Of a DNA stretch of 36,713 nt, positions 8,731 to 14,211 are shown in pieces. Each line of letters starts with the position of its first letter. Within the stretch, counting starts at the first letter, position 1. The notes beneath the pieces were generated by a model. The model searched no databases and was not told the DNA's origin. It saw only the letters and a list, made by a program, of their open reading frames with translations. The stretch comes from an uncultured Haliea sp. (GTDB lineage: Bacteria; Pseudomonadota; Gammaproteobacteria; Pseudomonadales; Halieaceae): contig CAJXTK010000012.1 of NCBI GenBank assembly GCA_913061115.1, positions 1-36,713 on the forward strand, read 5' to 3'. The translations under genes and the position numbers were made by a program.

Positions 8731-8777
8731 ACTGAATCGCGATGAGGCAGCCTTTGAACACCACTTGGAAAACATCC

Positions 8778-9323
8778 ATGCCATACAACTATTGTGTCGT
8801 CGTAACCTTCTGCATGCTTGTGGCAGCCTGCGGAGAGAGAAACGAGCCCAGCCTAGCGACTTCGGCCGAACCCCCTTATCAAGCCATCACCACTATCCAG
8901 GACACTATGGCGTGGATTCTCGATCCTGCCGCCGATGTAATTTGGAGCTCTGCCGGCACCATTATCACCGCTCAAGGGCACCAGGAGCTGGCACCTACCA
9001 CGGATGAGGACTGGGCCGAGGTATTGCACGCTGCGGCCACACTGACCGAAGCCGGAAATTTACTAATGATGCCCGGGCGCGCAGCGGGAGACGACTGGAT
9101 TGAGTACGCACAGGGGCTGACGGCAGCGGGGCAACTGGCGATTAAGGCAGCTCAAGATCAGGACGATGAAGCGCTGTTCGAAGCCGGTGGACGTCTCTAT
9201 CAGGTGTGTCGCGCCTGCCACAATCAGTACTGGATTGAAGCCGAGGGCGGCGATCAAAGAGATGATGGTTACGATGAAAACGAAAATGAAAATGAAAACG
9301 ATCAGGGCCACTCAACACGATGA
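8778..9323 (+). CDS. haem-c binding lipoprotein, cytochrome c'-like
   Basis: A 181-residue lipoprotein counted from the ATG at 8778, chosen because it puts the lipobox (MLVAAC, Cys18) at the end of a signal peptide. A helical body follows (TIQDTMAWILDPAADVIW, EVLHAAATLTEAGNLLMMPGR), ending with one haem-attachment motif CRACH at about 144-148. This order (helices, then CxxCH near the C-terminus) resembles cytochrome c'-type four-helix cytochromes. The tail is acidic (DENENENEND), encoded by a GAAAAY hexamer repeat. The stop overlaps the next start (ATGA), so it is the first gene of a three-gene operon with a HupE-like protein and a membrane-anchored protein. A periplasmic electron-transfer or ligand-sensing role is inferred. 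Confidence 0.72.
   Translation: MPYNYCVVVTFCMLVAACGERNEPSLATSAEPPYQAITTIQDTMAWILDPAADVIWSSAGTIITAQGHQELAPTTDEDWAEVLHAAATLTEAGNLLMMPGRAAGDDWIEYAQGLTAAGQLAIKAAQDQDDEALFEAGGRLYQVCRACHNQYWIEAEGGDQRDDGYDENENENENDQGHSTR
9276..9299 (+). repeat. GAAAAY hexamer repeat, four copies
   Basis: Four consecutive six-base units (GAAAAC, GAAAAT, GAAAAT, GAAAAC) inside the haem-c lipoprotein gene encode the alternating Glu-Asn tail. Six is a multiple of three, so copy-number change would lengthen or shorten the tail without a frameshift. Confidence 0.9.
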
Positions 9324-10009
9324 CTTCCGTAAAGTTCTACGCATCGCTATTGGCAGTTTGTGCCGCACTGCTGGCCTCCAAAAGTTTAGGTCACGACCTC
9401 TCCGCCGATAACGCCGCTTATGTTCAAGGGCTGAAGGGTACAGCAGTAATTCCCTTTCTCTATCTGGGCGCAAAGCATATGTTCACCGGCTATGACCACC
9501 TGCTGTTTTTGCTCGGGGTCATCTTCTTTTTGTATCGCCCAAAAGATATTATCTTGTATGTGACACTCTTCACCCTAGGCCACAGCATCACTCTTTTTCT
9601 GGGTGTCTGGGGGCACTGGCAAGTCAGTGGGCATTTAGTCGATGCTATTATTGGTTTGTCGATAGTGTATAAAGCCTTCGAAAATATAGGAGGCTTCAAA
9701 TTACTTTGGGGCTTCAACCCCGACACTCGCGTCGCTGTATTTGTATTCGGGCTCTGTCACGGCCTCGGCCTTGCAACTAAATTGCAGGGTTATATTGCTA
9801 GCGGTGATTCACTGATGATAAATCTTTTGAGTTTTAATCTTGGTGTAGAGCTCGGACAGTTACTGGCATTGAGCCTGATCCTTATCATTTTGCTGCAGCT
9901 ACGTCGCTACGCTGCATTTCAGTCTCGAGCTTTTGCGATAAATATTGTTCTGATGTGTGCCGGCTTTATTTTAGCGGGCAATGAATTTGCAGGGTATCTT
10001 TTCGCATGA
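9320..10009 (+). CDS. HupE/UreJ-like membrane protein
   Basis: A 229-residue inner-membrane protein with a signal-like first segment and about six to seven further helices. Family motifs are plain: GYDHLLFLLGVIFF, FTLGHSITL, GLCHGLGLA and FNLGVELGQ, placing His, Asp and Glu inside the membrane. HupE/UreJ proteins are known or proposed nickel/cobalt permeases; this subgroup (HupE_UreJ_2) is not tied to a hydrogenase or urease, and none is seen here. It overlaps the haem-c lipoprotein stop by four bases and the next gene start by four bases, so the three are translationally coupled. Metal supply to the neighbouring envelope proteins is an inference. Confidence 0.88.
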   Translation: MTSVKFYASLLAVCAALLASKSLGHDLSADNAAYVQGLKGTAVIPFLYLGAKHMFTGYDHLLFLLGVIFFLYRPKDIILYVTLFTLGHSITLFLGVWGHWQVSGHLVDAIIGLSIVYKAFENIGGFKLLWGFNPDTRVAVFVFGLCHGLGLATKLQGYIASGDSLMINLLSFNLGVELGQLLALSLILIILLQLRRYAAFQSRAFAINIVLMCAGFILAGNEFAGYLFA

Positions 10010-10551
10010 GCCAAACCCCCGAAGCACGCCGAATTATTCTTGCCAGTAGCGGCGCCGCGCTGGTCGCTGCAATTCTACTGACTACCGTCATTCTCCCTTC
10101 CGAGTATGGCTGGGATCCGCTGGGAACCGGGGCAGCGCTCGGCCTAATGGAGCTGGCAGGTGAAGATGGAACACCGCTGACACTCCAAGCGGCCGGACCG
10201 TACAGCGATAGCATAGCGTTTGCGTTAGCGCCCTATGAATCTGTCGAATACAAATATCGCCTCGAGGCAGGTGACACGATGATATTTGAATGGAGGGCGA
10301 GTGAAGAGGTTCTGGTCGATATGCACGCCGAGCCCGATGGTGCCGCACCCGGTTATGCGCAGACCTTTAACAAAACACGTACGACTCACGGCAAGGGTAG
10401 TTATCGAGCAGCTTTCGACGGTATTCACGGCTGGTATTGGCAAAATCGCACGCAGGAAGATGTGATAGTGACCCTAGAGGCGCAGGGTTTCTTTACCGAG
10501 TCATTAGAAATGGGCAATGGGCGTAGCAACACTCGCCAGTTTGCAGAGTAG
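10006..10551 (+). CDS. single-pass membrane-anchored periplasmic protein
   Basis: A 181-residue protein with an N-terminal transmembrane anchor (IILASSGAALVAAILLTTVIL) and a soluble, probably beta-rich domain outside the membrane (VEYKYRLEAGDTMIFEWRAS, VLVDMHAEPDG, HGWYWQNRTQEDVIVTLEAQG). Homologues are usually labelled transmembrane anchor protein; no biochemical function is known to me. It is the third gene of the coupled operon. It ends 14 bases before the convergent 48-residue peptide gene, so the two operons meet tail to tail. Confidence 0.75.
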   Translation: MSQTPEARRIILASSGAALVAAILLTTVILPSEYGWDPLGTGAALGLMELAGEDGTPLTLQAAGPYSDSIAFALAPYESVEYKYRLEAGDTMIFEWRASEEVLVDMHAEPDGAAPGYAQTFNKTRTTHGKGSYRAAFDGIHGWYWQNRTQEDVIVTLEAQGFFTESLEMGNGRSNTRQFAE

Positions 10552-10565
10552 GCAATGGAACGGGT

Positions 10566-10712
10566 TTAACCGTAAGCAAGTTCCAACATTTCGCGTACCG
10601 CTTGAATTTCATCGGACCAGTAGATAATAAAACCAATGATCACCGCAGTTGCTGCCAGCAGTGCTGCAAGCGCAGTGTCTTTATTGCCATTAGCGGAATT
10701 TTTTTCTTCCAT
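10566..10712 (-). CDS. 48-residue membrane peptide
   Basis: A small gene reading MEEKNSANGNKDTALAALLA, then ATAVIIGFIIYW and a short tail ending in MLELAYG. A charged N-terminus, a single transmembrane helix and a soluble tail give a typical small membrane subunit. The ATG lies seven bases after the stop of the upstream DUF6644-like gene, with AGG and GGAG just ahead, so it is the last gene of the minus-strand operon. The family is unknown to me. Clean gene-like layout and position make it likely to be real. Confidence 0.7.
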   Translation of the reverse strand: MEEKNSANGNKDTALAALLAATAVIIGFIIYWSDEIQAVREMLELAYG

Positions 10713-10719
10713 CTCCAGC

Positions 10720-11304
10720 CTACCCTGAAAATCCGATCCAACGGCCAGTCGCGGCCACCGAAAACCATATCATCAGTGACGCAATGCCCACCAGACGCAA
10801 TAGTTGCGGGTTCATGTTTTCGACATCTCCACGCAATAGAGGCCTGCGTATAAAGAAGACGAAAAAGACGCCGGTTACCAGCGCCAGCATCTTGTACCAG
10901 AATACATTGAGGTAATACACCTTGAGTGCGACACCGCAGGCCATGAAGACGCCAGAGAGAATCATCGCCGTCAGACTCCACACGAATAGCCGATGTGATT
11001 GGTCCAGCACGCGACTCACAGAAAAGTCGCGGAGTATCAGGCCAAGTAGCCGTCCGTCAGCAACCAGTACAGCACCCCCGAGCAGAGCCATCGCAATAAG
11101 ATGCGCGGCCTCCACCAGCGCAAAGACTGCGCCGTAGGTCTGGCTGATCACGCCAGGGGAAGTCGCTTCCATCCACTCGAATAGTGGCAGCAGAGCTTCC
11201 CATGTGGTGTGTCGTGCGTCCGTTAGGGCAAACGCCAGACCGAACACGATAACCGCCCCGACGGAGATTGTCCGCGGGTAGGGGCCCAGTAGTGCTCGGT
11301 TCAC
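10720..11304 (-). CDS. DUF6644-like integral membrane protein (copy 1)
   Basis: A 194-residue protein with about five hydrophobic segments and the DUF6644-like pattern of an EAAHL helix (ALVEAAHLIAMALLGG) followed by ADGRLLGL, an HRLFVWSL segment and a C-terminal ATGRWIGFSG. The conserved membrane histidines recall haem- or metal-binding helices, but function is not established. It starts at GTG with GGGAGAG six bases upstream. It shares its layout with the next gene upstream (residues H, DLRxLG, GR-x-I), so the two look like paralogues that may form a heteromeric complex. Confidence 0.72.
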   Translation of the reverse strand: MNRALLGPYPRTISVGAVIVFGLAFALTDARHTTWEALLPLFEWMEATSPGVISQTYGAVFALVEAAHLIAMALLGGAVLVADGRLLGLILRDFSVSRVLDQSHRLFVWSLTAMILSGVFMACGVALKVYYLNVFWYKMLALVTGVFFVFFIRRPLLRGDVENMNPQLLRLVGIASLMIWFSVAATGRWIGFSG

Positions 11305-11338
11305 TGCTGCTCTCCCAAAGGTGTTTCCAAACTACCCA

Positions 11339-11917
11339 TTAAAACTGCTCCTGATCGGCGATGCAGCCTGCCAGCGTGGCAATAAAGGACGAGGGCTCAG
11401 CGCGACAATCGAACCAATCATAGGCGATGAGGCGGCCGCAGATAACAATCAGCACCCATAAGGTAATCGAAAGGCTGGCGCCCACCTGCAAACGCACAGG
11501 AGCTTTCACTGCAGTATCCCAGCTCTGTCCCGCTGTGCGCAGACGGCGATGAAACAGCCACGCGTTTATCGCCGCCGCAAACAACAAGACCAGCTTGATA
11601 CGAAGCCATAGGCTTTGGGCGCTGCGCACTGGAATGGCATAGAACAACAACAGGCCGGTGATAATCATCACGGTGAACCCCAGGAACATCGGCAGACTCA
11701 GGCGTCGTGCGAGGGTTGAGGCGGGAATGTCCGCCATTGCCAAGCCGAGCATGCGCAAATCGATAAGAAACAGCATACCGAGGCTGAGCGTCAGGGCGAC
11801 CACGTGAGTGGATTCAATCCAGTTATAAACGTAGAAAGATTCGTGTAGCGCGGTACTCCACTGATGGGTATCAACCCATGCCGCAAAATCGTAGATAAGC
11901 TGATTAAAGACGTCCAA
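11339..11917 (-). CDS. DUF6644-like integral membrane protein (copy 2)
   Basis: A 192-residue protein with about five transmembrane helices. Diagnostic parts are an ESTHVVALTLSLGMLFLIDL segment leading into RMLGLA, RIKLVLLFAAAINAWLFHRRL and the C-terminal CGRLIAYDWFDC. The start is TTG at 11917 with GAGGAA ten bases upstream; no in-frame ATG is available because a TGA precedes it. It lies 37 bases after the DUF6152 gene and 34 bases before its paralogue. It probably forms the membrane part of the envelope module; its biochemical role is unknown. Confidence 0.72.
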   Translation of the reverse strand: MDVFNQLIYDFAAWVDTHQWSTALHESFYVYNWIESTHVVALTLSLGMLFLIDLRMLGLAMADIPASTLARRLSLPMFLGFTVMIITGLLLFYAIPVRSAQSLWLRIKLVLLFAAAINAWLFHRRLRTAGQSWDTAVKAPVRLQVGASLSITLWVLIVICGRLIAYDWFDCRAEPSSFIATLAGCIADQEQF

Positions 11918-11954
11918 GCTCCGTCATTTCCTCGGCGATATTACCGTTGTCGCC

Positions 11955-12398
11955 TTAGCGGCGATCGCGGGGATCAGAACCATCCTTGGGCGCCCCGGTA
12001 CCGGAAGAACCCATAAAGACTTTGCGGCCATCTGAAAAAGTGAGATCGCGGCCGTTCGCCTTGCAGGCCGGTGCACAACGTTTGTCTTTGGCCTGATAGC
12101 CTCGCACTTTGATGCTTGTGCCAATGGGCACCGAGTTTTTGTTAACACCACCCCGCAGCAGCGTATTGGGTGTGCCACCTTCCACCATCCATGCAACGGT
12201 ACTTCCATCCCCCCCCGTAACGTCCAAGTGTATCCACGCATGAGGGTTGATCCACTCCACTTTGGTCACAACACCCTCAAGACTCACGGGTGCCTCTTTA
12301 TCAAACTCCGCCGAGAAAGCGTGGTGCCCTTTCGCCTGCCAGGAATACAGTGCAGCCAATGGCAATAGCATCAAGGCCAATAGTCGTATTGTACGCAT
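11955..12398 (-). CDS. DUF6152 secreted protein
   Basis: A 147-residue exported protein. The signal peptide ends in QAKG and is followed directly by HHAFSAEFD, the hallmark of DUF6152 proteins. The body is a small beta-domain of the family (VSLEGVVTKVEWINPHAWIH, MVEGGTPNTLLRGG, VPIGTSIKVRGYQAKD, ANGRDLTFSDGRKVFMGSSG). If cleavage falls after Gly24, the mature chain starts with His-His, which could bind metal, as the N-terminal His of CopC does. A Cys pair (CAPAC) replaces the usual short turn after YQAKD. It lies four bases after the stop of the 322-residue secreted protein gene, with AGGA seven bases before the ATG. Confidence 0.82.
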   Translation of the reverse strand: MRTIRLLALMLLPLAALYSWQAKGHHAFSAEFDKEAPVSLEGVVTKVEWINPHAWIHLDVTGGDGSTVAWMVEGGTPNTLLRGGVNKNSVPIGTSIKVRGYQAKDKRCAPACKANGRDLTFSDGRKVFMGSSGTGAPKDGSDPRDRR

Positions 12399-12401
12399 AG
12401 T

Positions 12402-13370
12402 TTATTCCTTCTCTTCTTGCCGGGCCCCGGCAAGAATATTTTTGAGGGCGTAGTTTCCTTCGTGGCAGGCATATTCGTAGATCGGCCCTTCACTCGACCG
12501 CAGTGTCATTTCGCCGCGCCAAGTTTGTGTGTAAATACTCTCATCGGTGACACTGAATTGATACAGCAATTCACCTTTGGACGTTCGGGTAAAGCGCTCT
12601 TCGACAACGCTGTCTTCGGTCATATAGAACTGGTGCTTAATGGCAGCCCTAAGGTTTTGCTGCAGATGAAAGCCCGTGGTGCGCACTACCAACGTGTCAC
12701 CTTCCCAGTGGCCCAAGGAATCTCCCAGCCAGGGCCGTACGGCTTTCGGCAGCGGCTTGCCGACCATGCGCACAGTGCGGACGTCGTGATTCATCTCAAC
12801 CAGGATCAGGATCACATCCTCGGTCTGCACAAACTGGTAGTTATTGTTGTACAGCACAGGCAACATCGGTGGCCCACCGGTGGAGCCAAAACCGACAGTA
12901 CAACGCTCGCCCAGAGGACGCTCTTCCGGGTTATCGTGGCGCGCTATAAACGTGTAACCGTGCCAGTAAAAACGGCCTCTACCCCAAAGCGTATAGGGTA
13001 CGTGGCCATCCTCTGGATCCACTATAATGGAGCTGCGTGGCTCACCGTTAACACGTAAAACCCGCGTGCCGGGTTCCAGCCACGCCGCATTGTATCCACC
13101 AACGTTCTCGCCCGCCTCTAAATCACCCTCGGGAATATCGTCGATGCTTTCGAGAACATCTTCACCATTTTGCTCAAGGACACGGGCCTGCTCTTCGGTA
13201 AGAACCAAGCCCTCTAACCCATCCGGGCGATCTAAAGTGGTAATGGTGGCACTGGTCCAGATGCCCTGGATGTCGGGATCACCCCAAGGCATACGTGACA
13301 CCTCCCATTGCTCTGCCATTGCTGCAGAAGAGGCAATCAAAGCGAGACTGATCAGTAACAAGGGTCTCAT
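12402..13370 (-). CDS. secreted protein of the DUF6152-associated family (paralogue A)
   Basis: A 322-residue protein with signal peptide MRPLLLISLALIASSAAMA. It shares a set of motifs with the next upstream gene: GDPDIQGIW near the N-terminus, WEGDTLVVRTTGFH in the middle, ERFTRTSKGELLYQFSV, TQTWRGEMTL and a C-terminal YEYACHEGNY. A cysteine occurs in RCTVGF and another in the ACHEG motif. Proteins like this are numerous in metagenomes and usually hypothetical; no enzyme activity is known to me. It has a GAGGG ribosome site seven bases before ATG and sits 13 bases from its paralogue and four bases from DUF6152, so all are probably cotranscribed. Confidence 0.75.
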   Translation of the reverse strand: MRPLLLISLALIASSAAMAEQWEVSRMPWGDPDIQGIWTSATITTLDRPDGLEGLVLTEEQARVLEQNGEDVLESIDDIPEGDLEAGENVGGYNAAWLEPGTRVLRVNGEPRSSIIVDPEDGHVPYTLWGRGRFYWHGYTFIARHDNPEERPLGERCTVGFGSTGGPPMLPVLYNNNYQFVQTEDVILILVEMNHDVRTVRMVGKPLPKAVRPWLGDSLGHWEGDTLVVRTTGFHLQQNLRAAIKHQFYMTEDSVVEERFTRTSKGELLYQFSVTDESIYTQTWRGEMTLRSSEGPIYEYACHEGNYALKNILAGARQEEKE

Positions 13371-13383
13371 GCGTATGCCCTCG

Positions 13384-14211
13384 TTAATCCAGCGGTTCTT
13401 TGCGAAGGTGACCGTACATCATTTCCTCAACATACTCGACGCAACTGAAGCGCAGCATTTGCGCGTCAGCCCCTACCCGTTTGTAAAGCGGCATGGTGAT
13501 CGTCCACGGGCGGGTAAACACGTCGCCATCTTCTAATGTCGCACTGTAATCAATAGTATGCTCACTGGTGCGGGTGTAGCGCTCAATCACCTTCAGTTTA
13601 TCACTGTGGTAATTACCGGACCGGTCTAACCAGGTCTGGTCATGCATCCCATTCGTTTCGATAACTAATGTATCGTCCTCCCAGCGAGCCCACGACAGGC
13701 CCATCCATGAGTCAATCGGCGCGGGGCCGGGATCACTAAGAGCAACATTGCGCACCGCCCCTGCGTAGGAATAGGAAAACATCAGAGCATCTTTATTGTG
13801 TGCAATTTGGAACGGGTATGGCATATAGGTGGCGCGCGGTATTCCTGGAAGATAGCAGTGCACTTCAGGATCTGCGGTAATCCAGTTTTTCCTGTTTTCT
13901 TCGCGCTTTGCCAGCGCCTTTGGCTTGTAGGGAATCTCGTCGCCCTCAACAACACCGAGGCTGGGAGGGACAGCCCCAACCGCGCCCAAAGCCACAAGCT
14001 CCTTTAAGGGCACAGGCACTACGGGGCCCTCTCGCATCACCTGAGCCGCTCGGCCCGTATGCGCTTCCAGAGAATCATTGGCAGTGTTGAGCACCTGCCA
14101 TACCCCGGTAAAGTCCGGCTTGCCATCGGCAGTGCGAGGTGGCTCATAGTCTGCCAAGGCAAAGGCAGGTATTGTCATGGAGAGAATTACTATTAATGGA
14201 ATAAGGTTCAT
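13384..14211 (-). CDS. secreted protein of the DUF6152-associated family (paralogue B)
   Basis: A 275-residue protein from the ATG at 14211, which gives a clear signal peptide (MNLIPLIVILSMTIPAFALA). A longer in-frame start at 14298 adds 29 residues with no signal character. Shared motifs with paralogue A: GKPDFTGVW, WEDDTLVIETNGMHDQTWLD, ERYTRTSEHTIDYSATLEDG, FTRPWTITMPL and a C-terminal FSCVEYVEEMMYG. The family is uncharacterised. It is the first gene of the minus-strand envelope operon (B, A, DUF6152, two DUF6644-like proteins, 48-residue peptide). AGGAG lies 12 bases before ATG. Confidence 0.75.
   Translation of the reverse strand: MNLIPLIVILSMTIPAFALADYEPPRTADGKPDFTGVWQVLNTANDSLEAHTGRAAQVMREGPVVPVPLKELVALGAVGAVPPSLGVVEGDEIPYKPKALAKREENRKNWITADPEVHCYLPGIPRATYMPYPFQIAHNKDALMFSYSYAGAVRNVALSDPGPAPIDSWMGLSWARWEDDTLVIETNGMHDQTWLDRSGNYHSDKLKVIERYTRTSEHTIDYSATLEDGDVFTRPWTITMPLYKRVGADAQMLRFSCVEYVEEMMYGHLRKEPLD

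Follow-up and report, generated by a model that had tools for sequence, protein, structure and literature searches.

The stretch of DNA analysed here (the window) comprises 36,713 nucleotides of contig CAJXTK010000012.1 from an uncultured Haliea sp. (assembly GCA_913061115.1), and the system in question is a module of nine envelope genes at positions 8,778 to 14,211 therein, with cytC, HupE and anch on one strand and secA, secB, DUF6152, DUF6644b, DUF6644a and pep48 on the other (Table 1). A first-pass annotation, made from the letters alone, had described nine open reading frames in two operons meeting tail to tail; their order, strands and overlaps were all reproduced, with a gap of 14 bases (10552-10565) between the opposing stops. 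The families proposed at that stage, namely HupE_UreJ_2, DUF6152, two DUF6644 copies and a pair of secreted paralogues, were recovered by Pfam, hhalign and joint alignment, and every product was indeed found to be exported or membrane-bound. The plus-strand starts at 9320 and 10006 overlap the preceding genes by 4 bases and the minus-strand genes are tightly spaced; for cytC, starts at 8742 and 8778 are both possible. When the nine proteins were searched against Pfam, no family was matched by SecA, SecB, Anch or Pep48. As a scan of the module for promoters and terminators gave nothing above shuffled sequence, the operon boundaries are based on spacing and conservation. No metal-responsive regulator is encoded in or adjoining the module. 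A perfect 10-pair hairpin, TTCTTGCCGGGCCCCGGCAAGAA, is located at 12414-12436 within the last secB codons, just before DUF6152, and could represent an mRNA processing or stability element.

Table 1. The nine genes of the convergent module, with the basis of each assignment (dN/dS, ratio of nonsynonymous to synonymous substitution rates).
Gene	Product	Coordinates	Strand	Basis
cytC	C-terminal CxxCH lipoprotein, cytochrome c'-like	8778..9323	+	Lipobox LVAAC and CRACH read directly; sub-threshold PF01322
HupE	HupE_UreJ_2 membrane permease	9320..10009	+	PF13795, 171.2 bits, E 1.6e-50
anch	Periplasmic protein anchored by a single helix	10006..10551	+	Relatives on metal-resistance plasmids named 'transmembrane anchor protein'
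pep48	48-residue single-helix peptide	10566..10712	-	Conserved in 13 loci; dN/dS 0.22
DUF6644a	Membrane protein	10720..11304	-	PF20349, 171.5 bits, E 1.8e-50
DUF6644b	Paralogous membrane protein, TTG start	11339..11917	-	PF20349, 27.0 bits, exactly at cut-off; hhalign to DUF6644a
DUF6152	Exported protein, predicted mature N-terminus His-His	11955..12398	-	PF19649, 108.6 bits (cut-off 27), E 1.7e-31
secB	Exported paralogue of secA	12402..13370	-	Signal peptide read directly; joint alignment with secA
secA	Exported protein, predicted FABP/CRBP-like beta-barrel	13384..14211	-	AlphaFold2 model, fold comparison

The predicted N-terminal histidines of DUF6152 and its natural fusions

By the (-3,-1) rule, from which the mature N-termini of this family were predicted, the DUF6152 protein of the window would be cleaved between AKG and HHAFSAEFD, leaving a mature start of His-His. 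A standard signal-peptidase site, with Ala, Gly or Ser at -1, and His-His immediately after it were found in all 49 DUF6152 proteins of the loci surveyed and in all 28 of a phylum-wide set, and this predicted His-His start in 77/77 sequences sampled is new here. Across the 49 loci, H25, H26, E31, D33, H53 and H57 are invariant; H53 belongs to a second invariant motif, Asn/Pro-Pro-His, that is present in both the family alignment and the phylum-wide set, most of the phylum-wide proteins sharing little besides this motif and the His-His start. A histidine that matters only after cleavage is a hallmark of N-terminal-histidine metal sites, such as those of lytic polysaccharide monooxygenases, CopC and YcnI. 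The predicted His-His start together with Asn/Pro-Pro-His is the signature of such a site, and DUF6152 displays two sequence features of a histidine brace, a predicted mature His1 and a second conserved candidate ligand residue. The protein is accordingly a candidate for binding a transition metal, probably copper. The Pfam search gave no CopC match for DUF6152, and PDB sequence searches with DUF6152, SecB, Anch and DUF6644b returned nothing significant.

SecA and SecB were shown to be paralogous by joint alignment, with 12 invariant columns in common, and no Pfam model was found for their family. An AlphaFold2 model of SecA built from 95 diverse sequences reached a predicted local distance difference test score (pLDDT) of 86.5, compared with 48 when only 7 close sequences were used. 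Alignment of the former with VIA-align to 5h9a (CRBP1) gave Z 8.8 and a root-mean-square deviation of 3.2 over 121 residues, nearly all of the first 50 rows being FABP or CRBP structures, while Foldseek returned nothing at E<=0.001 (best E 0.024). From this model, SecA may possibly be a barrel binding a hydrophobic ligand. Near DUF6152-sec pairs at two other loci (L185:9528-10739 and L186:11468-12772), a cytochrome b561 is fused to a YceI lipocalin-like domain, a membrane haem protein and lipid-binding barrel of known type that parallel DUF6644 and Sec.

DUF6644a and DUF6644b are homologues (99.6% by hhalign), and each holds an invariant histidine inside a conserved E..H...G...DxR block; the invariant residues are E46, H68 and D83 in DUF6644a and E35, H38, D53, H123, C171 and C185 in DUF6644b. 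No match was obtained to known haem families. Membership of CopD was considered and not supported, the Pfam CopD match (E 0.035) falling below cut-off and hhalign giving 25% and 0.5%. The neighbouring pep48 is a real gene, since 13 loci retain it together with a conserved C-terminus (motif YW..IQ.VREML..AYG) and it evolves with a dN/dS of 0.22.

The association of these families was also assessed in an independent sample in which the phylum was sampled evenly with DUF6152 as the query. DUF6152 was present in 42 of 398 genomes; among the 20 loci examined, DUF6644 lay nearby in 15, a sec-family gene or fusion in 10, and one or the other in 19, the commonest form being a two-gene DUF6152-DUF6644 locus. 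DUF6152 and Sec form a single polypeptide at one locus (L193, 382 aa) and in several genes of two others (L042 and L043), and at L195 one 570-residue frame joins a signal peptide, DUF6152, Sec and DUF6644. Of all the evidence that the three work together in a single complex, these natural fusions are the strongest, and the first two parts of that complex would lie outside the membrane. On L042 (G010:C521) and L043 (G010:C487), two similar contigs, the DUF6152-sec fusions stand in arrays, at one end of which lies a DUF6644-HupE-anch-like set running in the same direction; the contamination of this bin is 4%, and the host of the arrays is therefore uncertain. On a Croceibacterium plasmid (L131), a tandem pair of DUF6152 genes and one sec-like gene lie between a pair of G8-domain proteins and a TonB receptor.

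Linkage of the two halves and the cassettes around the core

The window derives from a Halieaceae-type draft genome that is 93.6% complete, its relatives being labelled Halioglobus, Haliea and Halieaceae. Eight other genomes share all nine genes in this convergent order, giving nine family loci with that of the window; the full module is present, for instance, in the relative Candidatus Litorirhabdus singularis IMCC14734, and two further loci in relatives, seen in larger regions around DUF6152 matches, are cut by contig ends; the flanking genes vary from locus to locus and the convergent layout stays. Among 36 family genomes, DUF6152 and DUF6644 were found in the same 15 (15/15 versus 0/21, p = 2e-10). 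The annotation had held that its view would fall if the two halves rarely occurred together; the neighbourhood survey found the HupE/anch half, with anch as its marker, in 12 of these 15 genomes but not in any of the other 21 (Fisher p = 4e-7). In 11 of the 12 genomes having both, anch lies within about 2 kb of DUF6152, at a distance of about 1.9 kb, the exception being G016, where the cytC-HupE-anch trio occupies a separate contig (L236); in G035, HupE and anch are absent between pep48 and the cytochrome gene. The halves are thus linked yet separable cassettes. Against the nearest relative, dN/dS was 0.05-0.22 for six genes of the window, with secB at 0.05 and pep48 at the upper end, and the window copy is therefore under purifying selection.

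A wider survey covered 80 named loci, a biased sample in that they were retrieved via secA. DUF6152 was found near secA in 65 of them, cytC in 54, HupE/anch in 37 and DUF6644 in 30. SAR86- and Phenylobacterium-type loci read secA-(secB)-DUF6152-cytC-DUF6644b-DUF6644a, often on a single strand, those of SAR86 type lacking HupE/anch. Pseudohongiella-type loci place secA-DUF6152 opposite anch-HupE-cytC and lack DUF6644; the Halieaceae hold the parts of both arrangements, and HupE/anch also occurs alone among metal genes. The module is hence a set of cassettes, not one fixed unit, with DUF6152, a SecA-like barrel and DUF6644 as its core, to which the cytochrome c'-like lipoprotein, the HupE/anch pair, secB and pep48 are added. 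Beside Pseudohongiella-type modules (L097:16188-18485 and neighbours), a tannase-like DUF6351 protein, a CxxCxxCC protein and two Pfam-less families recur.

In HupE, H25, H53, D59, H60, H88 and H147 are invariant across 23 sequences that include plasmid-borne metal-resistance copies, and cleavage is predicted between xxG and HDLS, with Ala, Gly or Cys at -1 and His at +1 in 23/23. H107 and H141 of Anch are invariant in 30 loci. Relatives of Anch were found in 384 plasmid records, several of them annotated 'transmembrane anchor protein' and adjoining a HupE gene; the window HupE is 48-50% identical to the plasmid copies. Elsewhere the neighbours of the HupE-anch pair are CzcA efflux genes, a metal-sensing repressor with a P-type ATPase, or mreA with chromate resistance genes, and at L237 the pair stands beside CopC, CopD and DUF4198. 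The window shares its gene pair with heavy-metal plasmids and differs in what accompanies it: on the plasmids CzcA, metal repressors or chromate genes, in the window the DUF6152 module together with a cytochrome c' lipoprotein. Directly after the pair on a Shewanella metal plasmid lies a DUF6488 gene (L127:7553-7885). HupE/UreJ-2 proteins with an N-terminal His have been reported whose additional Ang domains bind copper with affinities of 62-74 nM (PMC12537917, 2025). The window HupE resembles these anglerase-bearing proteins in its PF13795 permease and mature N-terminal His; it differs in having no anglerase domain, in the separate anch gene and in the presence of DUF6152 in the same module.

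CytC carries a single CxxCH near its C-terminus, with M44, C144, C147 and H148 invariant in 42 loci. Its C-terminal part, around the CxxCH, matches the Pfam cytochrome c' model at E 2.1e-4, below cut-off, and its profile matches cytochrome c' in the PDB at E 0.015. The protein accordingly recalls the class II cytochromes c (cytochrome c', c-556) in its haem motif and weak profile match, and departs from them in being a lipoprotein with an unmatched N-terminal half.

Upstream of secA, a propeller dehydrogenase of the pyrroloquinoline quinone (PQQ) type is encoded directly in nine genomes of the genus. It is a haem-less lipoprotein resembling quinoprotein alcohol dehydrogenases, and orthologues at 69-100% identity occur only in these nine and in one more at a contig edge, all other copies being at most 55% identical. 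At L188 and L190, two unrelated loci, the sec genes likewise have PQQ enzymes beside them, and about 20 Pseudohongiella-type loci encode a GMC oxidoreductase and a Gluconate_2-dh3 subunit exported by the twin-arginine pathway upstream of secA. The window has no gene of either kind, this place being taken by a SpoU methylase gene. Nearly all genomes of the genus (G000-G020; for example L047:7801-9765) carry several PQQ-type dehydrogenases yet lack pqqB and a true pqqE, such that the genus would have to scavenge PQQ; with both genes missing throughout despite the abundance of the enzymes, PQQ synthesis genes were rejected as a marker.

A proposed envelope system and its competitors

Taken together, the nine genes may constitute one envelope system, a metal-dependent (probably copper) periplasmic complex that passes electrons among periplasmic dehydrogenases, cytochrome c and the membrane and has its own metal supply, a reading to which we tentatively assign a probability of about 0.4 and in which the identity of the metal, the complex, the flow of electrons and the substrate are all deduced from sequence. 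DUF6152 would be a periplasmic metalloprotein whose cleaved N-terminal His and invariant Asn-Pro-His bind the metal. The SecA and SecB barrels would sit with DUF6152, their ligand being perhaps a hydrophobic substrate or else a partner protein, whilst the two DUF6644 proteins and Pep48 would form a membrane platform beneath. CytC would be the electron carrier linking this complex to a periplasmic dehydrogenase of the quinoprotein or flavoprotein kind, or to the respiratory chain, and HupE and Anch would handle the metal with which the complex is loaded.

The first-pass proposal of a metal- or redox-dependent periplasmic system is upheld in part. The His N-termini, the metal-gene neighbours and the dehydrogenases near secA, which depend on PQQ or flavin adenine dinucleotide (FAD), speak for it; support is partial because the module consists of separable cassettes, because the window lacks the enzyme that is the likely partner, and because metal binding and redox activity reach beyond what sequence can establish. 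Several observations weigh against the proposed electron-passing complex. Metal binding by the DUF6152 residues stands as a prediction, DUF6644 has no reliable similarity to known haem or copper membrane families, and the barrel match of SecA is borderline at Z 8.8. The PQQ enzyme is absent from the window and its best match in the same draft genome reaches only about 36%, the GMC genes, mostly those of a single clade, are 0.3-7 kb away from secA, and the neighbours of secA vary, with nitrilase-like, AMP-ligase and short-chain dehydrogenase/reductase (SDR) genes at other loci.

The statement that such a system had not been described was in keeping with a literature search, which within the library covered found no paper on DUF6152, DUF6644 or, by family name, HupE_UreJ_2; searches on HupE with copper or with transmembrane anchor protein yielded mostly off-topic papers. 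Among known systems, CopC-CopD and YcnI-YcnJ likewise encode an exported protein with a metal-binding mature N-terminal His together with a multi-pass membrane partner. Here, however, DUF6152 gives no CopC match and DUF6644 no reliable CopD match, barrels and a cytochrome c are added, and no metal regulator adjoins; the DUF6152-DUF6644 pair may, by analogy, work like CopC-CopD-type pairs, though it is not classed as one. Periplasmic PQQ or FAD alcohol and sugar dehydrogenases with a cytochrome c partner offer a second parallel, such enzymes being encoded beside secA in relatives but not in the window. To our knowledge, neither DUF6152 nor Sec nor DUF6644 is a subunit of these dehydrogenases. 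Owing to the predicted His-His start of DUF6152 and its fusion or adjacency to Sec and DUF6644, two families of unknown function and a family-less pair of barrels can be brought under a single testable hypothesis, that of a metal-binding periplasmic complex. HupE/UreJ-2 permeases and a protein pair of metal plasmids are moreover connected, in widespread bacteria of the sea (Halieaceae, SAR86 and Pseudohongiella), with enzymes on the respiration side.

The principal competitor, which we consider somewhat unlikely, is a metal homeostasis operon devoid of redox catalysis, with DUF6152 as a chaperone akin to CopC or YcnI, DUF6644 as its CopD-like membrane partner, HupE/Anch as the permease, and barrels that bind metal or a metal-ligand complex. 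It would account for the predicted mature N-terminal His of both DUF6152 and HupE, the company that HupE-anch keeps with CopC, CopD and DUF4198 at L237 and with CzcA and metal repressors on plasmids, and the prevalence of the two-gene DUF6152-DUF6644 locus across the phylum. It fits poorly with several facts: the module neither contains nor adjoins a metal-responsive regulator, the haem-c lipoprotein occurs in 54/80 loci, dehydrogenase genes adjoin secA in several lineages, and the predicted form of the barrels is lipid-binding-like.

That form is central to a less probable alternative, a module for the oxidation or uptake of hydrophobic compounds, in which SecA and SecB would be FABP-like carriers feeding a periplasmic dehydrogenase, DUF6644 and the cytochrome would only return electrons, and metal would be incidental. 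In addition to the resemblance of the fold to lipid- and retinol-binding proteins, genes for TonB receptors, P450, SDR and AMP-ligases surround many loci, and PQQ and FAD dehydrogenases adjoin secA; the phylum-wide DUF6152-DUF6644 pair nevertheless occurs without sec genes, and the invariant N-terminal His-His and HupE would be left unexplained.

A bolder version of the metal-dependent, electron-passing complex would make DUF6152-SecA/B-DUF6644 a periplasmic copper oxidase or oxygenase of a new class, with a histidine brace on DUF6152, a barrel holding the hydrophobic substrate, electrons delivered via CytC and the DUF6644 pair, metal supplied by HupE/Anch, and a PQQ or FAD dehydrogenase that either works on the product or gives electrons; this we regard as doubtful. 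Least credible of all is that two unrelated operons became neighbours in one clade through shared descent: the halves do occur apart (as at L236), and only one (G163) of 16 other Gammaproteobacterial genomes with anch relatives has a DUF6152 match, but chance or single-clade synteny was rejected on the near-perfect co-occurrence across genomes and the re-assembly of the parts in other orders and strands in the SAR86, Phenylobacterium, Pseudohongiella-type, 005FR1 and L042 loci, and the core is moreover naturally fused and the module kept while its flanks change.

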